NCBI RefSeq assembly: GCF_028682635.1 | Contig: NZ_JANHLK010000009.1 | Location: 1 to 64,000, forward strand | Direction of reading: 5' to 3' | Length of the DNA: 64,000 bases | From: Pseudomonas putida | Lineage (GTDB): Bacteria; Pseudomonadota; Gammaproteobacteria; Pseudomonadales; Pseudomonadaceae | Shown: positions 43,100 to 49,815 of the stretch, in pieces | Position numbering within the stretch: the first letter of the stretch is position 1 | Layout: each line of letters starts with the position of its first letter | Notes under the pieces: generated by a model | The model's database searches: none | Told to the model about the DNA's origin: nothing | Seen by the model: only the letters and a program-made list of their open reading frames with translations | Position numbers and translations under genes: made by a program

Positions 43100-44812
43100 A
43101 TGTCCCTCCCTCTGCATGTTCTTCGTCCGCTCGCCCAGGGTTTCGCCGCCGGGCTGTTACTGGCCGTTACCGGTTGTGGTGTTTCGTCCAAGCCCGATTC
43201 CGCCTCTGTGTCATCGCCGGCCCAGGCCGAGTTGAAAACCGAATCGTCGGTGCATCACGAACTGCTCGACGCTGACGCCTCGATGAGCAAGCGCAATGTC
43301 AGACCCGCACCGATGGCCGGCTTCGCGCCAATGCCTGCGGGCGAGGCTTATCCACAGGGATATCGCGACGAACAGCGCGAGCAGTACCAGGCCCTGGCAG
43401 ATAACCCCATCCACAGCGTCGCCGAAACACCGGTCTCGACCTTCAGCGCCGACGTCGATACCGGTGCTTACGCCAACGTCCGCCGTTTGCTCAACCAGGG
43501 GCGATTGCCACCGGAAGGAGCGGTGCGGCTGGAGGAGATGGTCAATTACTTCCCTTACGACTACGCCTTGCCCACCGATGGCTCGCCCTTCGGCGTGACC
43601 ACGGAACTGGCGGCGTCGCCCTGGAATTCGCATACGCGCTTGTTGCGCATCGGCATCAAGGCCTCGGATCGCGCGGCCGCGGAACTGGCCCCGGCGAACC
43701 TGGTGTTCCTGGTGGACGTGTCCGGCTCGATGGATCGTCGCGAGGGCCTGCCGTTGGTCAAAAGCACCCTGAAATTGCTGGTCGATCAACTGCGTGAGCA
43801 GGATCGGGTGTCGTTGGTGGTCTACGCCGGGGAATCGCGCGTGGTACTGGAGCCCACTTCCGGACGGGAAAAAGCGAAGATTCGTACAGCCATCGAGCAA
43901 TTGACTGCAGGCGGTTCAACCGCCGGAGCCTCGGGCATCGAACTGGCTTATCAACAGGCGCAACAGGCGTTTATCCCCAAGGGCATCAACCGCGTTCTAT
44001 TGGCCACTGACGGTGACTTCAACGTTGGAGTCAGCGACTTCGACAGCCTCAAACAAATGGCTGTGGATAAACGCAAGACGGGTGTATCTCTGACCACCCT
44101 GGGTTTCGGTGTGGATAACTACAATGAACACCTGATGGAACAACTGGCCGATGCCGGCGATGGCAACTACGCCTACATCGACAACCTGCGTGAGGCGCGC
44201 AAGGTGCTGGTGGATCAACTCGGCTCAACCCTTGCCGTCGTGGCGAAAAACGTCAAGCTGCAAGTGGAGTTCAACCCCGCGCAAGTCAGCGAGTATCGCC
44301 TGCTGGGTTATGAAAACCGTGCGTTGAAACGTGAGGATTTTAGCAATGACAAGGTCGATGCCGGTGAAATCGGTGCAGGACATACCGTGACTGCGTTGTA
44401 CGAAATTGTCCCCAAGGGTGAGAAGGGCTGGCTGGAACCGCTGCGCTACGCTCAACCGGGCGCCGCTATTGCTGAAAAGCATGGCGAATTGGCGATGCTG
44501 CGGGTGCGTTATCAGTTGCCGGAAGGTGGGAAAAGTCGCTTGATCGAACGCCCGATCGTTGATTCCCCGATTGGCAAAGCAAGCGATGACCTGCGCTTTG
44601 CTGCAGCAGTGGCTGCTTTTTCCCAACAGCTCAAGGACGGACGCTACACCGGCGAGTTCAGCCTCAAGGACACCGAAGCGCTGGCCCACGGCGCCCGGGG
44701 CGATGACCGTTTCGGCCTGCGCAGCGAGTTCGTGCAATTGGTGGAACTGGCGCAGAGCCTGCGCACCACCACCGCGTCGAATCCAACTGCCACTGAACGA
44801 CGGATTGAATAG
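43100..44812 (+). CDS. VWA-domain lipoprotein (YfbK-like, DUF3520)
   Basis: 570-residue exported protein. A lipobox (LLAVTGCGVSS, Cys about 29) anchors it to a membrane. A vWF-A-N type region (NPIHSVAETPVSTFSADVDTGAYANVRR) leads to a VWA domain with an intact MIDAS motif DVSGSM, a later TDGDFNVG, and a C-terminal DUF3520 region. YfbK-like proteins have no firm function. It overlaps by one base the ECF sigma gene, followed by a putative anti-sigma, suggesting an envelope-stress or surface-sensing operon. Confidence 0.88.
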   Translation: MSLPLHVLRPLAQGFAAGLLLAVTGCGVSSKPDSASVSSPAQAELKTESSVHHELLDADASMSKRNVRPAPMAGFAPMPAGEAYPQGYRDEQREQYQALADNPIHSVAETPVSTFSADVDTGAYANVRRLLNQGRLPPEGAVRLEEMVNYFPYDYALPTDGSPFGVTTELAASPWNSHTRLLRIGIKASDRAAAELAPANLVFLVDVSGSMDRREGLPLVKSTLKLLVDQLREQDRVSLVVYAGESRVVLEPTSGREKAKIRTAIEQLTAGGSTAGASGIELAYQQAQQAFIPKGINRVLLATDGDFNVGVSDFDSLKQMAVDKRKTGVSLTTLGFGVDNYNEHLMEQLADAGDGNYAYIDNLREARKVLVDQLGSTLAVVAKNVKLQVEFNPAQVSEYRLLGYENRALKREDFSNDKVDAGEIGAGHTVTALYEIVPKGEKGWLEPLRYAQPGAAIAEKHGELAMLRVRYQLPEGGKSRLIERPIVDSPIGKASDDLRFAAAVAAFSQQLKDGRYTGEFSLKDTEALAHGARGDDRFGLRSEFVQLVELAQSLRTTTASNPTATERRIE

Positions 44813-45423
44813 TGAGCCGATTGAAGGGGTTCATCAGCCAGCTGTTTGCGCCCGCAAGCAGCTCCGAGGCCAGCAGCGACGAAGCGCTGCTGGCCCGTTA
44901 TCGCGAGGGCGACGGCGCGGCGTTCGAGATTCTGTACGCGCGCCACCGCCAGGGTTTGTACCGATTTCTGCTGGGGTTGAGCGGCAGGGCGGAACTCGCC
45001 GAGGAGGTCTATCAGGAAACCTGGCTGAGCCTGATCCGCAGCGGCAGTCAGCCACAAGGTCGGGCGACTTTTCGTACCTGGCTCTACCAGATTGCCCGCA
45101 ACCGCTTGATCGATCACTGGCGCAAACATGGCGTCCACCAACCGCTGCACGACAGCTATGACGAACAAGCCCATGCTCTGCCCGATGACACCACCGATCC
45201 CGAGCAACTGCTGAGCCTGAGCCGTGACAGCCAGCGTCTGGAGGCCGCCCTGCAAGCCTTGCCCGCCGACCAGCGCGAAGTGTTCCTGCTGCGCGCCTAC
45301 AGCGATCTCGATTTGCCGCAGATCGCCACCCTCACCGAAACACCGCTGGAAACCGTCAAGAGCCGCTTGCGTTACGCCCAGCAAAAACTGCGTCGGCTGC
45401 TGGCCGAGGAGGTACTGACATGA
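44812..45423 (+). CDS. ECF-family RNA polymerase sigma factor
   Basis: 203-residue sigma-70 family factor with region 2 (YRFLLGLSGRAELAEEVYQETW, WLYQIARNRLIDHWRK) and region 4 (LPADQREVFLLRAYSDLDLPQIA, ETVKSRLRYAQQKLRR). It starts at a GTG overlapping the VWA stop and ends with an ATGA overlap into the next gene, so the three genes form one coupled operon. The regulon cannot be seen; autoregulation is likely but I found no clean promoter at 43013-43099. Confidence 0.92.
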   Translation: MSRLKGFISQLFAPASSSEASSDEALLARYREGDGAAFEILYARHRQGLYRFLLGLSGRAELAEEVYQETWLSLIRSGSQPQGRATFRTWLYQIARNRLIDHWRKHGVHQPLHDSYDEQAHALPDDTTDPEQLLSLSRDSQRLEAALQALPADQREVFLLRAYSDLDLPQIATLTETPLETVKSRLRYAQQKLRRLLAEEVLT

Positions 45424-46034
45424 CTGACGCCAAGCACACAACCGACCGAACGCTAGAACATTACCGCGAGCACGCCACCGGCGAACCCCCGGCGCATCTC
45501 GACACGTCGATCCTGGCCGCCGCACGCAGCGCAGTGCCTGCACCGAAGCCAGGCCTGTGGCAACGCTGGCTTCGCGGCTGCCAGCAACCCCGCTGGCAAG
45601 TGGCATTCGCCAGCCTCGTCGGCATCGCGCTGATGCTCTCGCTGGTCCAGCGTTCGCCTGAGCAAGTACCCAGCTACGACTTCGCGCCTGCGGCACCGGT
45701 GGCCAAACAGGAAGCCGAAGCAGCGCCGCCAGCGCTGGCCCGTTCCCTGAAAGCCCCGGCTGGCGCGCTCTCCGCCCCGGCCCCCGCCGCACCAATGGCG
45801 GAATCGGCAGCCCCGGCACAAGCAGAATCCTTCAGCGCCGACATGGCGGACGAAGCCAAGTCCAGCAAGCGCGCCGCGCCCCCGGTGAAATCCCTGGATG
45901 AGCAATTGCGCGAAGTGCTGCACCTGCAAAAAACCGGGCACAAGCAAGCCGCCGACAAACTGCTGGCCGACCTGCACAAACGCTTTCCCGAAGAAAACCT
46001 CAGCGCCCGACTCAAGGATCTGCAGAAAAACTGA
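45420..46034 (+). CDS. Putative anti-sigma factor (single-TM)
   Basis: 204-residue protein: a cytoplasmic N-terminus (about 1-55), one TM helix (QVAFASLVGIALMLSLV), then a low-complexity Ala/Pro-rich periplasmic region and a short helical C-terminus (LREVLHLQKTGHKQAADKLLADL). Position immediately after an ECF sigma gene with an ATGA overlap suggests an anti-sigma, but no zinc-binding or known anti-sigma motif is visible. Confidence 0.65.
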   Translation: MTDAKHTTDRTLEHYREHATGEPPAHLDTSILAAARSAVPAPKPGLWQRWLRGCQQPRWQVAFASLVGIALMLSLVQRSPEQVPSYDFAPAAPVAKQEAEAAPPALARSLKAPAGALSAPAPAAPMAESAAPAQAESFSADMADEAKSSKRAAPPVKSLDEQLREVLHLQKTGHKQAADKLLADLHKRFPEENLSARLKDLQKN

Positions 46035-46114
46035 TCGGCCCAACGCTCGACGATTTGGCATCAAGGCCCGAAAGCGCGCACTATCGGGCCATAGTCGATG
46101 CGTTGGAGGATGCC

Positions 46115-46324
46115 GTGACAAAAAAAATCGACCGCATCGCCCAAATGCTCAACTGCCCGGAAAAGGGCGAGGAATTACGGCGGGCAATTACCGAGAGCCG
46201 TAAGGATTTTCTGCTGAATCAGCAGGAAGAGGCTAATGCTGAGGAAGAAGATGTTCTTGAAGGGGAAGAATTCGAGGACGACGAGGATGATGAATACGAC
46301 GAGTTTGACTGGACGACGGAGTGA
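46115..46324 (+). CDS. Small acidic hypothetical protein
   Basis: 69-residue protein starting at GTG with GGAGG six bases upstream. The first half looks folded (TKKIDRIAQMLNCPEKGEELRRAI); the second half is extremely acidic, dominated by Glu/Asp with few hydrophobics. It could be a nucleic-acid mimic or a charge-regulated partner protein. No family recognised. Confidence 0.6.
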   Translation: MTKKIDRIAQMLNCPEKGEELRRAITESRKDFLLNQQEEANAEEEDVLEGEEFEDDEDDEYDEFDWTTE

Positions 46325-46456
46325 ATAAGCTGCTGCCGCCAAAGGATTATTAACAGCAATTCGAAGGGTTACGAGTCGCAAGACACTCTTGAATGTATGG
46401 TTTCTCTTTCATATTGCGGAACGGAAAGTCGGGAGTCATGGCCTGCTTGTCGGCAG

Positions 46457-46547
46457 TTGACGAGATGTCCTCAAACCTTATAATCGGCCACAACACGGCC
46501 CCTGTCGGTTGATGCGCTTCGGCGTTGAGATTGCTCAGGGGTTTTTT
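46457..46547 (+). ncRNA. Candidate small RNA with strong sigma-70 promoter and terminator
   Basis: TTGACG (46457-46462), a 16-base spacer and a perfect TATAAT (46479-46484) form a near-consensus promoter. About seven bases later a transcript of 55-60 bases would begin. It folds into one stem closed by CCCCTG (46499-46504) / CAGGGG (46536-46541), carries an internal CGC-TTCG-GCG tetraloop hairpin, and ends in TTTTTT. No protein can fit between promoter and terminator. Confidence 0.55.
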
Positions 46548-46567
46548 ATTGCCTGAAATTTTTCCGC

Positions 46568-47581
46568 TTACCAGTCGCGCTTTTTCCAGTCTGGGTCGAC
46601 TCCCATCCCTTCCAGGCTGAGGTCCAGATGCGTCAGATCAGGGAAATCGTTTTCCAGCAACGCCTTCAATCGTTTTCCCCAACTCGATGATGGGTTGATG
46701 ACTTTCATCAGATGCTGGGTGATGCACAAAAGCATGAACGGACGAGCCCGGCGGTGTGCGTCATCATGGAAAGCTGACAAGTTTGGCGCTTGGTCCTCAG
46801 ATGGCAGCTTCGGTTGATCGACAATATTTCGGTTCCACAGACGACTGTGATGGGCGCAGACGTTGCGTAGATAATTCAGGCTGCGCAGCCAACTGGCGAA
46901 AACCCTGCCGTTGCTGATGCCGTACTCCTGCGAAATAGCATCTTGGTCTGCCTCGGCCATGCCAGCGTAAAGCGTCGAAAGCGTGCCGAAGTCCCAAACC
47001 TCGCATGCCACCCACACCGCCAATGGAAGTCCGTACTTTTCCTTGTTGTGGCGAATGAAGTCTTCGTTCGAGCGATTGATCAACGCAGCGTGTTTACCAA
47101 GCCAGGCATGATGTTTAGTCAGTCCGGTTTTACCGTCCAGTCGAGTGGAAAAGCTTTCATGGAACAGATCAGGTCGTAGGTAGGCAAACTTTTCGTGTTT
47201 GCCGAGCCCGTGGGAAATGTCCACCCGTAAAGCAATTTCAATGCGCTCCAAGGCATCCATGGTCAACAGTCGCAGTTTCTTATCGAAGACGTACAGGTCG
47301 ACTGCGTTCTGGAATGTCGTGCCAGGCTTGAAACTGTCGAGCGGAAGTCGAGTCGGCTTCGTCCTGGTTGGCTTTGTACGAGCTTGTTGATCGAGTGGGC
47401 AGCAGAGCTCAGTGCGTTCGCGGAATGCAAACCAGTAACCGCTTAGGCGGTAGTAACCTATGCGCTCCAGATATTCCAGCGCTTTGGCTTGGTCTGTTAC
47501 AACCATTCCTCGAACCATCAGCAAATCAAGCTGCATTTGGTAGCTCTGCCACGGCTTTGGATAGCCTTGCATCATTTGCAT
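46568..47581 (-). CDS. Abi_2-family (AbiD/AbiF-like) abortive infection protein
   Basis: Protein of about 337 residues from ATG 47581 (AAGGTG four bases upstream). The N-terminal Abi_2 segments LEYLERIGYYRLSGYWFAFR and VDLYVFDKKLRLLTMDALERIEIALR are diagnostic, and the HEPN-type R-x4-H motif is present as RNVCAHHSRLWNR. HEPN Abi proteins are predicted RNases that stop phage infection by killing or halting the host. Lower GC and the adjacent tRNA-Arg suggest horizontal origin. Confidence 0.88.
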   Translation of the reverse strand: MQMMQGYPKPWQSYQMQLDLLMVRGMVVTDQAKALEYLERIGYYRLSGYWFAFRERTELCCPLDQQARTKPTRTKPTRLPLDSFKPGTTFQNAVDLYVFDKKLRLLTMDALERIEIALRVDISHGLGKHEKFAYLRPDLFHESFSTRLDGKTGLTKHHAWLGKHAALINRSNEDFIRHNKEKYGLPLAVWVACEVWDFGTLSTLYAGMAEADQDAISQEYGISNGRVFASWLRSLNYLRNVCAHHSRLWNRNIVDQPKLPSEDQAPNLSAFHDDAHRRARPFMLLCITQHLMKVINPSSSWGKRLKALLENDFPDLTHLDLSLEGMGVDPDWKKRDW

Positions 47582-47701
47582 ATCACCTTGCACTCCTTGG
47601 CAGCGAGTTGTGCAGGACGCTGAATTCAGCGTTAGAGGCAACTCGACGTTCGCTGCACCTTTTATCATTTCGTAGTCGTTCAGATAAACCGAGCACCCAC
47701 A

Positions 47702-47741
47702 AAAAAGCCCCAGACCCTACGGCCTGAGGCTTTCTCGTTTT
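47702..47741 (-). terminator. Terminator of the tRNA-Arg gene
   Basis: On the minus strand, AAGCCTCAGG...TCTGGGGCTT forms a stem with G-U pairs, followed by TTTTTT. It lies directly downstream of the tRNA. Confidence 0.7.
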
Positions 47742-47747
47742 TACGTA

Positions 47748-47824
47748 TGGTGCACCAGGCGGGATTCGAACCCACGACCCCTGCCTTCGGAGGGCAGTAC
47801 TCTATCCAGCTGAGCTACTGGTGC
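47748..47824 (-). tRNA. tRNA-Arg (anticodon CCG)
   Basis: 77 nt including an encoded CCA. The acceptor stem GCACCAG pairs with CTGGTGC; the D-arm is GCTCAGCTGGATAGAGT; the anticodon stem-loop is CTGCC-CTCCGAA-GGCAG with anticodon CCG, reading CGG Arg codons; the T-arm is GTGGGTTCGAATCCCGC. Its 3' end faces the Abi_2 gene, the side used by tRNA-targeting integrases. Confidence 0.97.
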
Positions 47825-48172
47825 AGCGGGCGCCATGATACTCATATGCGTTGCAGGCGTCCATGCTGCTGAATCGCCTGTGTTTTTTTAAAGCGTAACC
47901 TGCGTTTGCTACGTTGATCAGAAATTTGCAGCAAAAAAGAGGTTTTCGTTCTTTTTTTCGAACGGCCTATTGTCCTTTACCCCCTTTGATCCTAGGATTC
48001 GTTTGAGATTTCAAACGCTCTTGTCTGGGTGCTGAACCGCACGATTTGAATCAGTGCGCTATTTATGTGCTTCAGCCCGGTGAATGATTTCCCTGACGGC
48101 AGCCTACTGAGGCGCCTTTCTACAATCATAATTTGCTCCGCGCCTGTCGCGGTGCTGTTAAGGAAAGCCGAC
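47825..48172. promoter_or_regulatory. Upstream region of gabD (no gene seen)
   Basis: A 348-base gap without a plausible gene. It holds an imperfect T-rich hairpin (around 47949-47962) and a perfect inverted repeat CGTTTGA-GATT-TCAAACG (48000-48017) that could be an operator for the gab genes. No clear sigma-54 or sigma-70 consensus was found. Confidence 0.4.
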
Positions 48173-49615
48173 ATGCAGCTTAAAGACACCCAGTTGTTCC
48201 GCCAGCAAGCCTTCATCGATGGCGCTTGGGTTGATGCGGACAATGGTCAGACGATCAAGGTCAACAACCCGGCAACGGGCGAAATTCTGGGCACCGTGCC
48301 GAAAATGGGCGCTGCCGAAACCCGCCGTGCAATCGAAGCCGCTGACAAAGCGCTGCCGGCCTGGCGTGCACTGACCGCCAAAGAACGTGCGAACAAGCTG
48401 CGTCGCTGGTACGAGCTGATCATCGAGAACCAGGACGACCTGGCTCGCCTGATGACCCTGGAGCAGGGCAAGCCATTGGCCGAAGCCAAGGGCGAAATCG
48501 TTTACGCCGCATCGTTCATCGAGTGGTTCGCCGAAGAAGCCAAGCGCATCTACGGTGACGTGATTCCGGGCCACCAGCCAGACAAGCGCCTGATCGTGAT
48601 CAAGCAGCCTATCGGCGTGACCGCTGCCATCACCCCGTGGAACTTCCCGGCTGCCATGATCACCCGTAAAGCCGGCCCGGCCCTGGCCGCCGGTTGCACC
48701 ATGGTGCTCAAGCCTGCTTCGCAAACTCCGTTCTCGGCATTCGCCCTGGCTGAACTGGCCCAGCGTGCCGGCATCCCGGCTGGCGTGTTCAGCGTGGTGT
48801 CCGGCAGCGCCGGCGACATCGGCAGCGAGCTGACCAGCAACCCGATCGTGCGCAAGCTCTCCTTCACCGGTTCGACCGAAATCGGTCGCCAGCTGATGTC
48901 GGAATGCGCCAAGGACATCAAGAAAGTGTCCCTGGAACTGGGCGGCAACGCGCCGTTCATCGTGTTCGACGACGCGGACCTGGATAAGGCCGTCGAAGGC
49001 GCGATCATTTCCAAATACCGCAACAACGGCCAGACCTGCGTCTGCGCCAACCGCCTGTATATTCAGGATTCGGTCTACGACGCGTTCGCCGAGAAACTGA
49101 AAGTGGCCGTGGCCAAGCTGAAGATCGGTAACGGTCTGGAAGACGGCACCACCACTGGTCCGCTGATCGACGAAAAAGCCGTGGCCAAGGTGCAAGAGCA
49201 CATTGCCGACGCCGTTGCCAAAGGCGCCACCGTACTGTCCGGCGGCAAATCGATGGAAGGTAACTTCTTCGAGCCGACCATCCTGACCAACGTGACGAAC
49301 AACGCGGCCGTGGCCAAGGAAGAAACCTTCGGTCCATTGGCGCCGCTGTTCCGCTTCAAAGACGAAGCCGACGTGATCGCGATGTCCAACGACACCGAGT
49401 TCGGCCTGGCCTCGTACTTCTATGCTCGCGACCTGGGTCGTGTGTTCCGTGTGGCTGAAGCCCTGGAATACGGCATGGTCGGCGTCAACACCGGGCTGAT
49501 CTCCAACGAAGTCGCGCCGTTCGGCGGTATCAAGGCCTCGGGCCTGGGCCGTGAAGGCTCCAAGTACGGCATCGAAGATTACCTGGAAATCAAATACCTC
49601 TGCCTGGGCATCTAA
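48173..49615 (+). CDS. gabD: Succinate-semialdehyde dehydrogenase (NADP+)
   Basis: 480-residue aldehyde dehydrogenase oxidising succinic semialdehyde to succinate, the second step of GABA catabolism. General base Glu255 (LELGGNAPF) and nucleophile Cys289 (NNGQTCVCANR) are intact, with the NAD(P) loop FTGSTEIGR. ATG 48173 follows AAGGA. Pairs with gabT 200 bases downstream. Confidence 0.96.
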   Translation: MQLKDTQLFRQQAFIDGAWVDADNGQTIKVNNPATGEILGTVPKMGAAETRRAIEAADKALPAWRALTAKERANKLRRWYELIIENQDDLARLMTLEQGKPLAEAKGEIVYAASFIEWFAEEAKRIYGDVIPGHQPDKRLIVIKQPIGVTAAITPWNFPAAMITRKAGPALAAGCTMVLKPASQTPFSAFALAELAQRAGIPAGVFSVVSGSAGDIGSELTSNPIVRKLSFTGSTEIGRQLMSECAKDIKKVSLELGGNAPFIVFDDADLDKAVEGAIISKYRNNGQTCVCANRLYIQDSVYDAFAEKLKVAVAKLKIGNGLEDGTTTGPLIDEKAVAKVQEHIADAVAKGATVLSGGKSMEGNFFEPTILTNVTNNAAVAKEETFGPLAPLFRFKDEADVIAMSNDTEFGLASYFYARDLGRVFRVAEALEYGMVGVNTGLISNEVAPFGGIKASGLGREGSKYGIEDYLEIKYLCLGI

Positions 49616-49686: not shown

Positions 49687-49815
49687 GCTTCAAACCGGAA
49701 TTTTCTCTGTGGTCGGGAAAGCTGTGGCAGTCGATCATCGCATGCTGCCTCAGTTACCTCCCCACCGCTTAATCCTTGAGCCACGCCGACCGATGAGCGG
49801 CGAATGAGGAATGTA

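Follow-up and report, generated by a model that had tools for sequence, protein, structure and literature searches.

A short self-terminating RNA, convergent with an AbiD/F gene of Pseudomonas putida, as the probable antitoxin of a HEPN nuclease

Introduction

What is the role of a very short, strongly promoted RNA gene that points at the 3′ end of a predicted phage-defence gene? The question is posed by a 64,000-nucleotide stretch of Pseudomonas putida DNA (the window), in which a near-consensus promoter and a single hairpin face abi, a gene for a predicted ribonuclease of the AbiD/F (Abi_2) family.

Abi2, AbiF and AbiD proteins have been assigned to the HEPN superfamily and predicted to be RNases (available part of PMC3710099), and AbiD/F proteins have been linked to Cas13 and predicted to co-occur with the Rfam abiF RNA, RF03085 (available part of PMC12165695). 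AbiF of C. difficile is toxic, and RCd22, an RNA that binds it directly, can neutralise it in trans; the stems of the RNA matter (available part of PMC12373285). PbAbiF binds one AbiFr RNA per monomer, and the bulge nucleotides C32 and U38 of this RNA inhibit the RNase (available part of PMC12737573).

From the sequence comparisons described below, we consider it highly probable that the window RNA is the protein-binding antitoxin of an AbiD/F nuclease (AbiF-type, type III-like), encoded as a separate convergent gene and forming with it a toxin–antitoxin and phage-defence pair.

Results

A short RNA gene with a near-consensus promoter

The promoter, TTGACG-16-TATAAT, is of the sigma-70 type and occupies 46457–46484 on the forward strand, with the −35 element at 46457–46462, a 16-nt spacer and the −10 element at 46479–46484. 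In a scan of both strands of the whole 64 kb, at spacings of 16–18, it was the top-scoring site and the only one with at least 11 of the 12 consensus bases (one further site has 10), which bears out the sequence-only reading that had counted it among the window's best promoters. Transcription should begin at 46490/46491, and because the start is expected about 6 nt past the −10 element, the RNA is predicted to be about 57 nt long (46491–46547, forward strand).

The gene, as delineated by fold, conservation and a covariance model (R1, see below), consists of an unpaired 5′ CAACAC, one hairpin and a U6 tail. The 5′ arm of the lower stem, GGCCCCTG at 46497–46504, pairs with 46536–46543 (in RNA letters, GGCCCCUG with CAGGGGUU). 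Above it, a bulged U at 46505 faces a CU bulge on the 3′ side (46534–46535), and the upper stem, CGGTT/GATTG, carries a variable apical hairpin with a UUCG loop (46506–46533, from fold and alignment). The 3′ arm of the lower stem runs into T6 ending at 46547 (together 46536–46547), and the single hairpin doubles as the RNA's own intrinsic terminator; the short unit ending in a terminator hairpin that had been proposed from the letters is indeed there. The C(UUCG)G loop emphasised in the same proposal is present in the window but incidental, as the tetraloop differs among relatives and lies outside the conserved part. A terminator scan of the window did not list the hairpin; that scan takes loops of 3–8 nt only. 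The folding energy of the RNA, −23.1 kcal/mol, compares with a shuffle mean of −15.65 (z −2.8; equalled in 2 of 200 shuffles), and what exceeds chance for this RNA is its conservation.

When 46300–46700 was searched against Rfam, nothing matched the RNA at E ≤ 10; the sole result of a relaxed search of the RNA region, rox1, was set aside as a chance match. RF03085, with a threshold of 37 bits, had no match in 46300–46700 at E 10 and none in G000 at E 1. At gathering scores the whole window contains only a gabT RNA and a tRNA. The gabT RNA (RF01738, 67.3 bits, 49708–49769) lies just 5′ of a 429-aa ORF at 49804. Between a 204-aa ORF (45420–46034) and the RNA is an 89-aa ORF (46055–46324) with an acidic C-terminal half, for which neither Pfam nor PADLOC gave a match.

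The RNA faces a gene for a predicted HEPN ribonuclease

The gene abi extends over 46568–47572 on the reverse strand and encodes 334 aa. Its reading frame is open to 47668, and the start was placed at 47572 because relatives start there. The protein fits the Pfam profile PF07751 (Abi_2) with E=1.4e-55 (188.9 bits against a cut-off of 25.6), is called AbiD by PADLOC (3.7e-64) and has a homologue of known structure in the Abi family protein of PDB 8vz6 (E 2.5e-34). The HEPN motif R-phi-xxx-H is present as RNVCAHH; R-N-xxx-H occurs in all proteins compared, and an alignment of 36 Abi rows shows R236, N237 and H241 in every one of them. From the profiles, the structural homologue and the motif, the protein is predicted to be a HEPN ribonuclease.

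RNA and abi are convergent, tail to tail, with 20 nt from the end of the RNA (46547) to the abi stop codon (46568). An abi mRNA that ran on would hold the full complement of the RNA, and the RNA might then act antisense, lowering abi mRNA through terminator read-through or pairing with the abi 3′ UTR in a type I-like manner. We regard this as unlikely, an estimate that does not exclude protein binding, as both could act. The convergent layout favours it, but the 57-nt RNA lies outside the abi coding region, and plain antisense action would require neither a conserved fold whose paired bases change together nor the conserved bulge and single-stranded 5′ tail.

Upstream of abi, on the same strand, is a tRNA-Arg(CCG) gene (47748–47824, reverse strand; tRNA search, with ARAGORN on related loci), and a repeat search around it, from 44000 to 49000, gave no convincing island end. 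The abi leader contains an imperfect palindrome around GCTGAATTCAGC (47604–47645), in place of which several relatives carry GGCTGCCA...TGGCAGCC or similar by the ribosome site. The palindrome or its counterparts are perhaps a translational control element.

Conservation and covariation of the RNA

A blastn search of plasmids found the element in records from Methylomonas, Rhizobium, Methylobacter, two Sinorhizobium, Vibrio and Aromatoleum. In 7 of 7 plasmid records with long matches the first homologous base is 46491, precisely where the RNA is predicted to start. The family spans alpha-, beta- and gammaproteobacteria. Phage and plasmid matches to the last ~23 bases only (H1–H7 and H15) were dropped as a common terminator end, as were loci L005–L007, which have the terminator end alone in common with the RNA, and L135 (30.6 bits), by eye an unrelated terminator.

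A search pattern made from an alignment of ten RNA sequences was run on 84,980 species genomes. On the RNA alone it returned 86 stretches, and the titles of the 80 listed are all Pseudomonadota. In the alignment A2, which comprises 71 distinct RNA sequences (two identical phage copies were left out), standard pairs fill 95.3% of cells, and the covariation score is 0.318, compared with 0.165 ± 0.008 for shuffled alignments (none of 500 reached it), while slid versions gave no more than 0.072. The number of pairs changed on both sides, a weaker measure, is 8 against 6.3 shuffled and was reached by 14 of 500 shuffles; such counts are inflated by the relatedness of the sequences, and the pattern columns are constant by construction for most rows. 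The lower-stem pair of columns 14–56, left free in the pattern, covaries, occurring as CG 21, GC 21, UA 11, AU 9, GU 1 and other combinations 8 times (n = 71). The CU bulge, likewise not in the pattern, is invariant in 71 of 71 rows, while the U opposite is set by the pattern in most of them. The paired changes support the RNA fold. The covariance model R1, built from A2, matches the window RNA with 78.8 bits, its sole window match at E ≤ 1; the window's own row is included in the model. The call of a small RNA is upheld by a structured family with paired changes whose homology starts at 46491.

A −10-like sequence precedes the RNA at a near-constant distance in most related loci. This bears on a further possibility, that the hairpin, which has the form of a terminator, is only a transcription boundary blocking antisense transcription into abi. 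We give this almost no credence: the RNA has its own promoter at near-fixed spacing in most loci, its conserved 5′ CAACAC and CU bulge exceed the needs of termination, and it persists where abi is gone. A plain terminator role is doubted because it needs neither the 5′ CAACAC, the bulge nor the promoter. The limiting of antisense transcription, which had been raised from the sequence, gains no support as the main role.

Association with convergent abi across genomes

The 86 RNA loci were searched with the window Abi protein, using a script that needs 1100 bases downstream. An intact convergent abi was found at 51, an abi open to the contig edge at 6, a broken gene or remnant at 9 and none at 15, and 5 loci were too short; in L049 and L063, counted as broken or remnant, the contig in fact ends within 100 bases, and L081 and L087, counted as too short, show no abi over 800–1000 bases and fit the absent class better. 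The abi match nearest the RNA starts 10–48 bases past the pattern end. An abi gene on the same strand as the RNA was not seen, either among the nearest two matches at 89 loci or within 1800 bases downstream at 117 loci. The 117-locus set left out 11 of 30 genus loci (duplicates or unmatched by the pattern) and L042 (a duplicate of L004); the classification of abi as intact or broken took up L042 and most of those 11 and left out the duplicate L120 and the weakest loci, L132–L135. At the seven plasmid RNA loci abi is intact in four cases, broken in one and absent in two, and one of three viral RNA loci has abi.

A covariance search in other pseudomonads had been proposed from the sequence, and it proved productive: R1, with its paired changes in the stem, matches 29 of 348 genomes of the genus at E ≤ 0.01, with 26 loci at or above 70 bits and four weaker. 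Since the species-genome and genus sets share members (judged by length, L076 is the contig of L127), their counts are not to be summed. In the same draw the Abi protein has matches in 74 of the 348 genomes. All 16 near-full-length abi loci that are at least 72% identical, the window included, lie beside an R1 RNA, as do two abi loci in pieces (G289 and G352); one of the 16 (G218/L115) has an apparent in-frame stop. No R1 match is listed alongside the abi fragments G103:C73 and G320 (a 47-residue piece). Counted per genome and excluding the G320 piece, 17 of 17 genomes with such an abi have the RNA, all within the 29 RNA-positive genomes (hypergeometric P about 2e-21; 1.7e-21).

At larger distances, an unfiltered R1 search of 15 loci with abi less than 50% identical gave one clear match, L153 (G008, abi 48–49% identical), with 25.7 bits, a divergent copy that is again convergent with abi; L019 scored 14.8 bits in this search. 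In the protein-first search of plasmids (405 records with an Abi match; the loci examined were 8 of them plus five others), a Xanthomonas plasmid abi, 58.6% identical, has a convergent RNA of 45.3 bits with the promoter TTGACA/TATAAT. The tree of abi genes does not show the RNA-linked ones as one clade. The Rhizobium abi is also adjoined by an ar14 sRNA, an alphaproteobacterial RNA (RF02344, 102.9 bits, L009:5180–5303).

Alternatively, the RNA could be an ordinary trans-acting sRNA on chromosomal mRNAs, lying beside abi through shared history, and orphan copies with promoters do exist. However, the same neighbour in the same orientation is found in many genera, on plasmids of Rhizobium, Sinorhizobium, Methylomonas and Methylobacter too, and all 17 genus genomes just described carry the RNA. 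Shared history is a poor explanation because the association recurs across replicons, and we consider this reading highly improbable. That the RNA acts with the defence gene, the other suggestion of the sequence-only reading, is supported by its accompanying convergent abi in three proteobacterial classes.

Loss of abi and orphan RNAs

RNA without intact abi is common, and no near-full-length close abi without the RNA was seen among the 348 genomes of the genus sample. ARAGORN, run on 37 Pseudomonas loci, found tRNA-Arg(CCG) in 18, nine of them with abi (broken in L108 and L115) and nine with abi absent or a remnant. In L093, L094, L123 and L125 the tRNA-Arg lies ~90–135 bases from the RNA, with abi missing in between (L123 probably comes from the genome of L094), and remnants of the abi C-terminus lie beside intact RNAs in L061, L070, L078 and L124. 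In the genus sample, where the RNA is altered at otherwise invariant positions (L122, L130, L132, L133 and L134; the T-run is lost in L133), abi is broken or absent. The RNA changes in L131 (no abi) and L129 (intact abi, a core base changed) keep pairing. Loss is mostly one-way, as expected of a decaying toxin and its antitoxin, in numbers that are small and with kinship ignored.

The direction of loss also bears on whether the RNA activates the HEPN nuclease, as a cofactor or guide in the manner of Cas13, and does not inhibit it. The relation of AbiD/F to Cas13 and the RNA-guided ability suggested for ancestors of these proteins (available part of PMC12165695) speak for such a role. We nevertheless judge it very unlikely. 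The loss of abi with retention of the RNA, and not the reverse, fits an inhibitor better; each locus has one short RNA, which has a conserved core but lacks any long variable stretch resembling a guide; and the characterised AbiF RNAs inhibit, according to the available parts of PMC12373285 and PMC12737573.

Orphan RNAs have a mean of 8.8 promoter matches of 12 (n = 26), against 9.8 for RNAs with intact abi (n = 71), the two pools overlapping in genomes. Good promoters on orphan RNAs could mean a function without abi. Promoter-like sequence (8–10 of 12) and no downstream abi match were noted for L014 (an Aromatoleum plasmid), L013 (a Vibrio plasmid), L032, L034, L048 and L106. Two metagenomic phage contigs carry an RNA copy of 50.8 bits between ORFs (L018:8587–8634 and L017:1893–1940), with neither abi nor a good promoter nearby; judged by sequence, these copies are candidates for an RNA mimic against AbiD/F defence or for a look-alike phage terminator. 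Because the RNA is a self-contained, self-terminating gene, an antitoxin RNA of this kind could travel alone. We suggest, as a doubtful but conceivable reading, that the orphan copies on the Aromatoleum and Vibrio plasmids, at abi-less chromosomal sites and on the two phage contigs are free-standing immunity or counter-defence RNAs that would disarm AbiD/F in trans.

Leader RNAs of other AbiD/F genes

R1 was also run on seven distant plasmid abi loci. Three of them (L172, CAACACGGCC...GGTCGGTTTTC; L174; L175) have hairpins of 15–16 bits (E 0.04–0.09) directly upstream on the same strand, their abi being 39–45% identical; in the other four no R1-like upstream hairpin was found. The Rfam abiF RNA comes just under its cut-off in 2 of 19 genomes (34.2 and 32.9 against 37 bits), both times directly upstream and on the same strand of an abi 31–33% identical. 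The near-threshold RF03085 RNA of L019 starts with CAACAC and ends in a T-run.

A third leader hairpin is seen in 11 aligned same-genus loci among L155–L166 (abi 33–37% identical), ~125 bases upstream of abi. It follows a promoter TTGAC..., reads CAATCGCGCCCGATCCTCTGGTGCTGGC...GTCCGGCATTACGTTCGGGCCTTCTT and has a consensus fold of −24 kcal/mol; these loci have no Rfam abiF match.

The RNAs of AbiD/F genes can be read as a single theme of a promoter, a short unpaired tail and a bulged terminator-like hairpin; in the window's lineage the hairpin RNA, with its own promoter, is on the 3′ side of abi and convergent. The families may share descent, the RNA having moved relative to abi, though the leader look-alikes reach only 15–16 bits and are absent in 4 of 7 loci.

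Discussion

Because it faces abi and recurs beside it in many bacteria, the RNA most likely keeps the presumably toxic Abi protein off. On the evidence above, we rejected a terminator, an antisense limiter and an unrelated trans-acting sRNA as main readings. An antitoxin of this kind would work as follows. The strong sigma-70-type promoter would yield a 57-nt RNA with one bulged hairpin that is also its terminator, and this RNA would bind the HEPN ribonuclease dimer encoded opposite and keep it inactive. If the RNA is short-lived, its level would drop when, for example, a phage shuts off host transcription; the freed nuclease would then cut RNA, and growth would stop. Since the RNA is an independent convergent gene outside the toxin leader, the ratio of toxin to antitoxin could not be set by an intervening terminator; the strength of the promoters and the lifetime of the RNA would determine it instead of terminator read-through. 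An added antisense effect via convergent read-through is possible. Direct binding and inhibition of the toxin by the RNA we infer by analogy with the known systems.

One of the closest of these is AbiF/RCd22 of C. difficile phi027, likewise an Abi_2 HEPN toxin with an RNxCxH motif, adjoined by a short structured RNA with its own sigma-70-type (SigA) promoter and an intrinsic terminator (available part of PMC12373285). RCd22 differs in that it precedes abiF on the same strand and its transcription reads through into that gene, and in having two RF03085 motifs and a separate terminator (same part of PMC12373285), whereas the window RNA has one hairpin that is itself the terminator, is convergent and has no RF03085 match. 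PbAbiF, the homologue in PDB 8vz6, was solved with its inhibitory RNA, AbiFr, which inhibits via a single-stranded bulge with C32 and U38 (available part of PMC12737573); the window RNA has a conserved C+U bulge, a likeness by description. RF03085 resembles it in architecture only, as an asymmetric-bulge hairpin beside abi, and differs in its core sequence and in its upstream, same-strand position in the two loci seen here. The abiF RNA motif is said to come from a 2017 paper, and the PbAbiF/AbiFr study is reportedly that of Zilberzwige-Tal et al. 2025.

In the type III toxin–antitoxin systems ToxIN, AbiQ, CptNI and TenpNI, an RNA antitoxin also inhibits an endoribonuclease; these differ in toxin structure and in an upstream repeat-array antitoxin with a terminator between it and the toxin gene (available part of PMC12373285). 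The window locus shares with them an RNA gene next to the gene of an RNase toxin (RNase by homology). The RNA is, however, convergent in every associated locus scored, in place of upstream and co-transcribed, and the window holds one RNA copy in place of tandem repeats. Because of this layout, the coupling of leader and terminator seen in type III systems is broken. By analogy, the RNA is built as if it worked like AbiF-type RNA antitoxins.

What is new here is the arrangement: the RNA and the predicted toxin each have a gene of their own, the two being convergent, in place of a leader RNA with a downstream gene. A convergent AbiF RNA was not found described in the open-licence literature (articles without their supplements), and in the open-licence literature searched no Rfam motif other than RF03085 is named for AbiF-type nucleases. 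The finding adds to these nucleases a second RNA family, unregistered in Rfam, whose fold is defined and which offers many natural pairs across three classes of proteobacteria. Because natural compensatory variants exist, the features of the RNA that the nuclease would recognise become testable, and so does the disarming of defence by orphan and phage copies. Cas13 has been proposed to descend from AbiF-type nucleases, and its guide RNA from the RNA partners of these nucleases.
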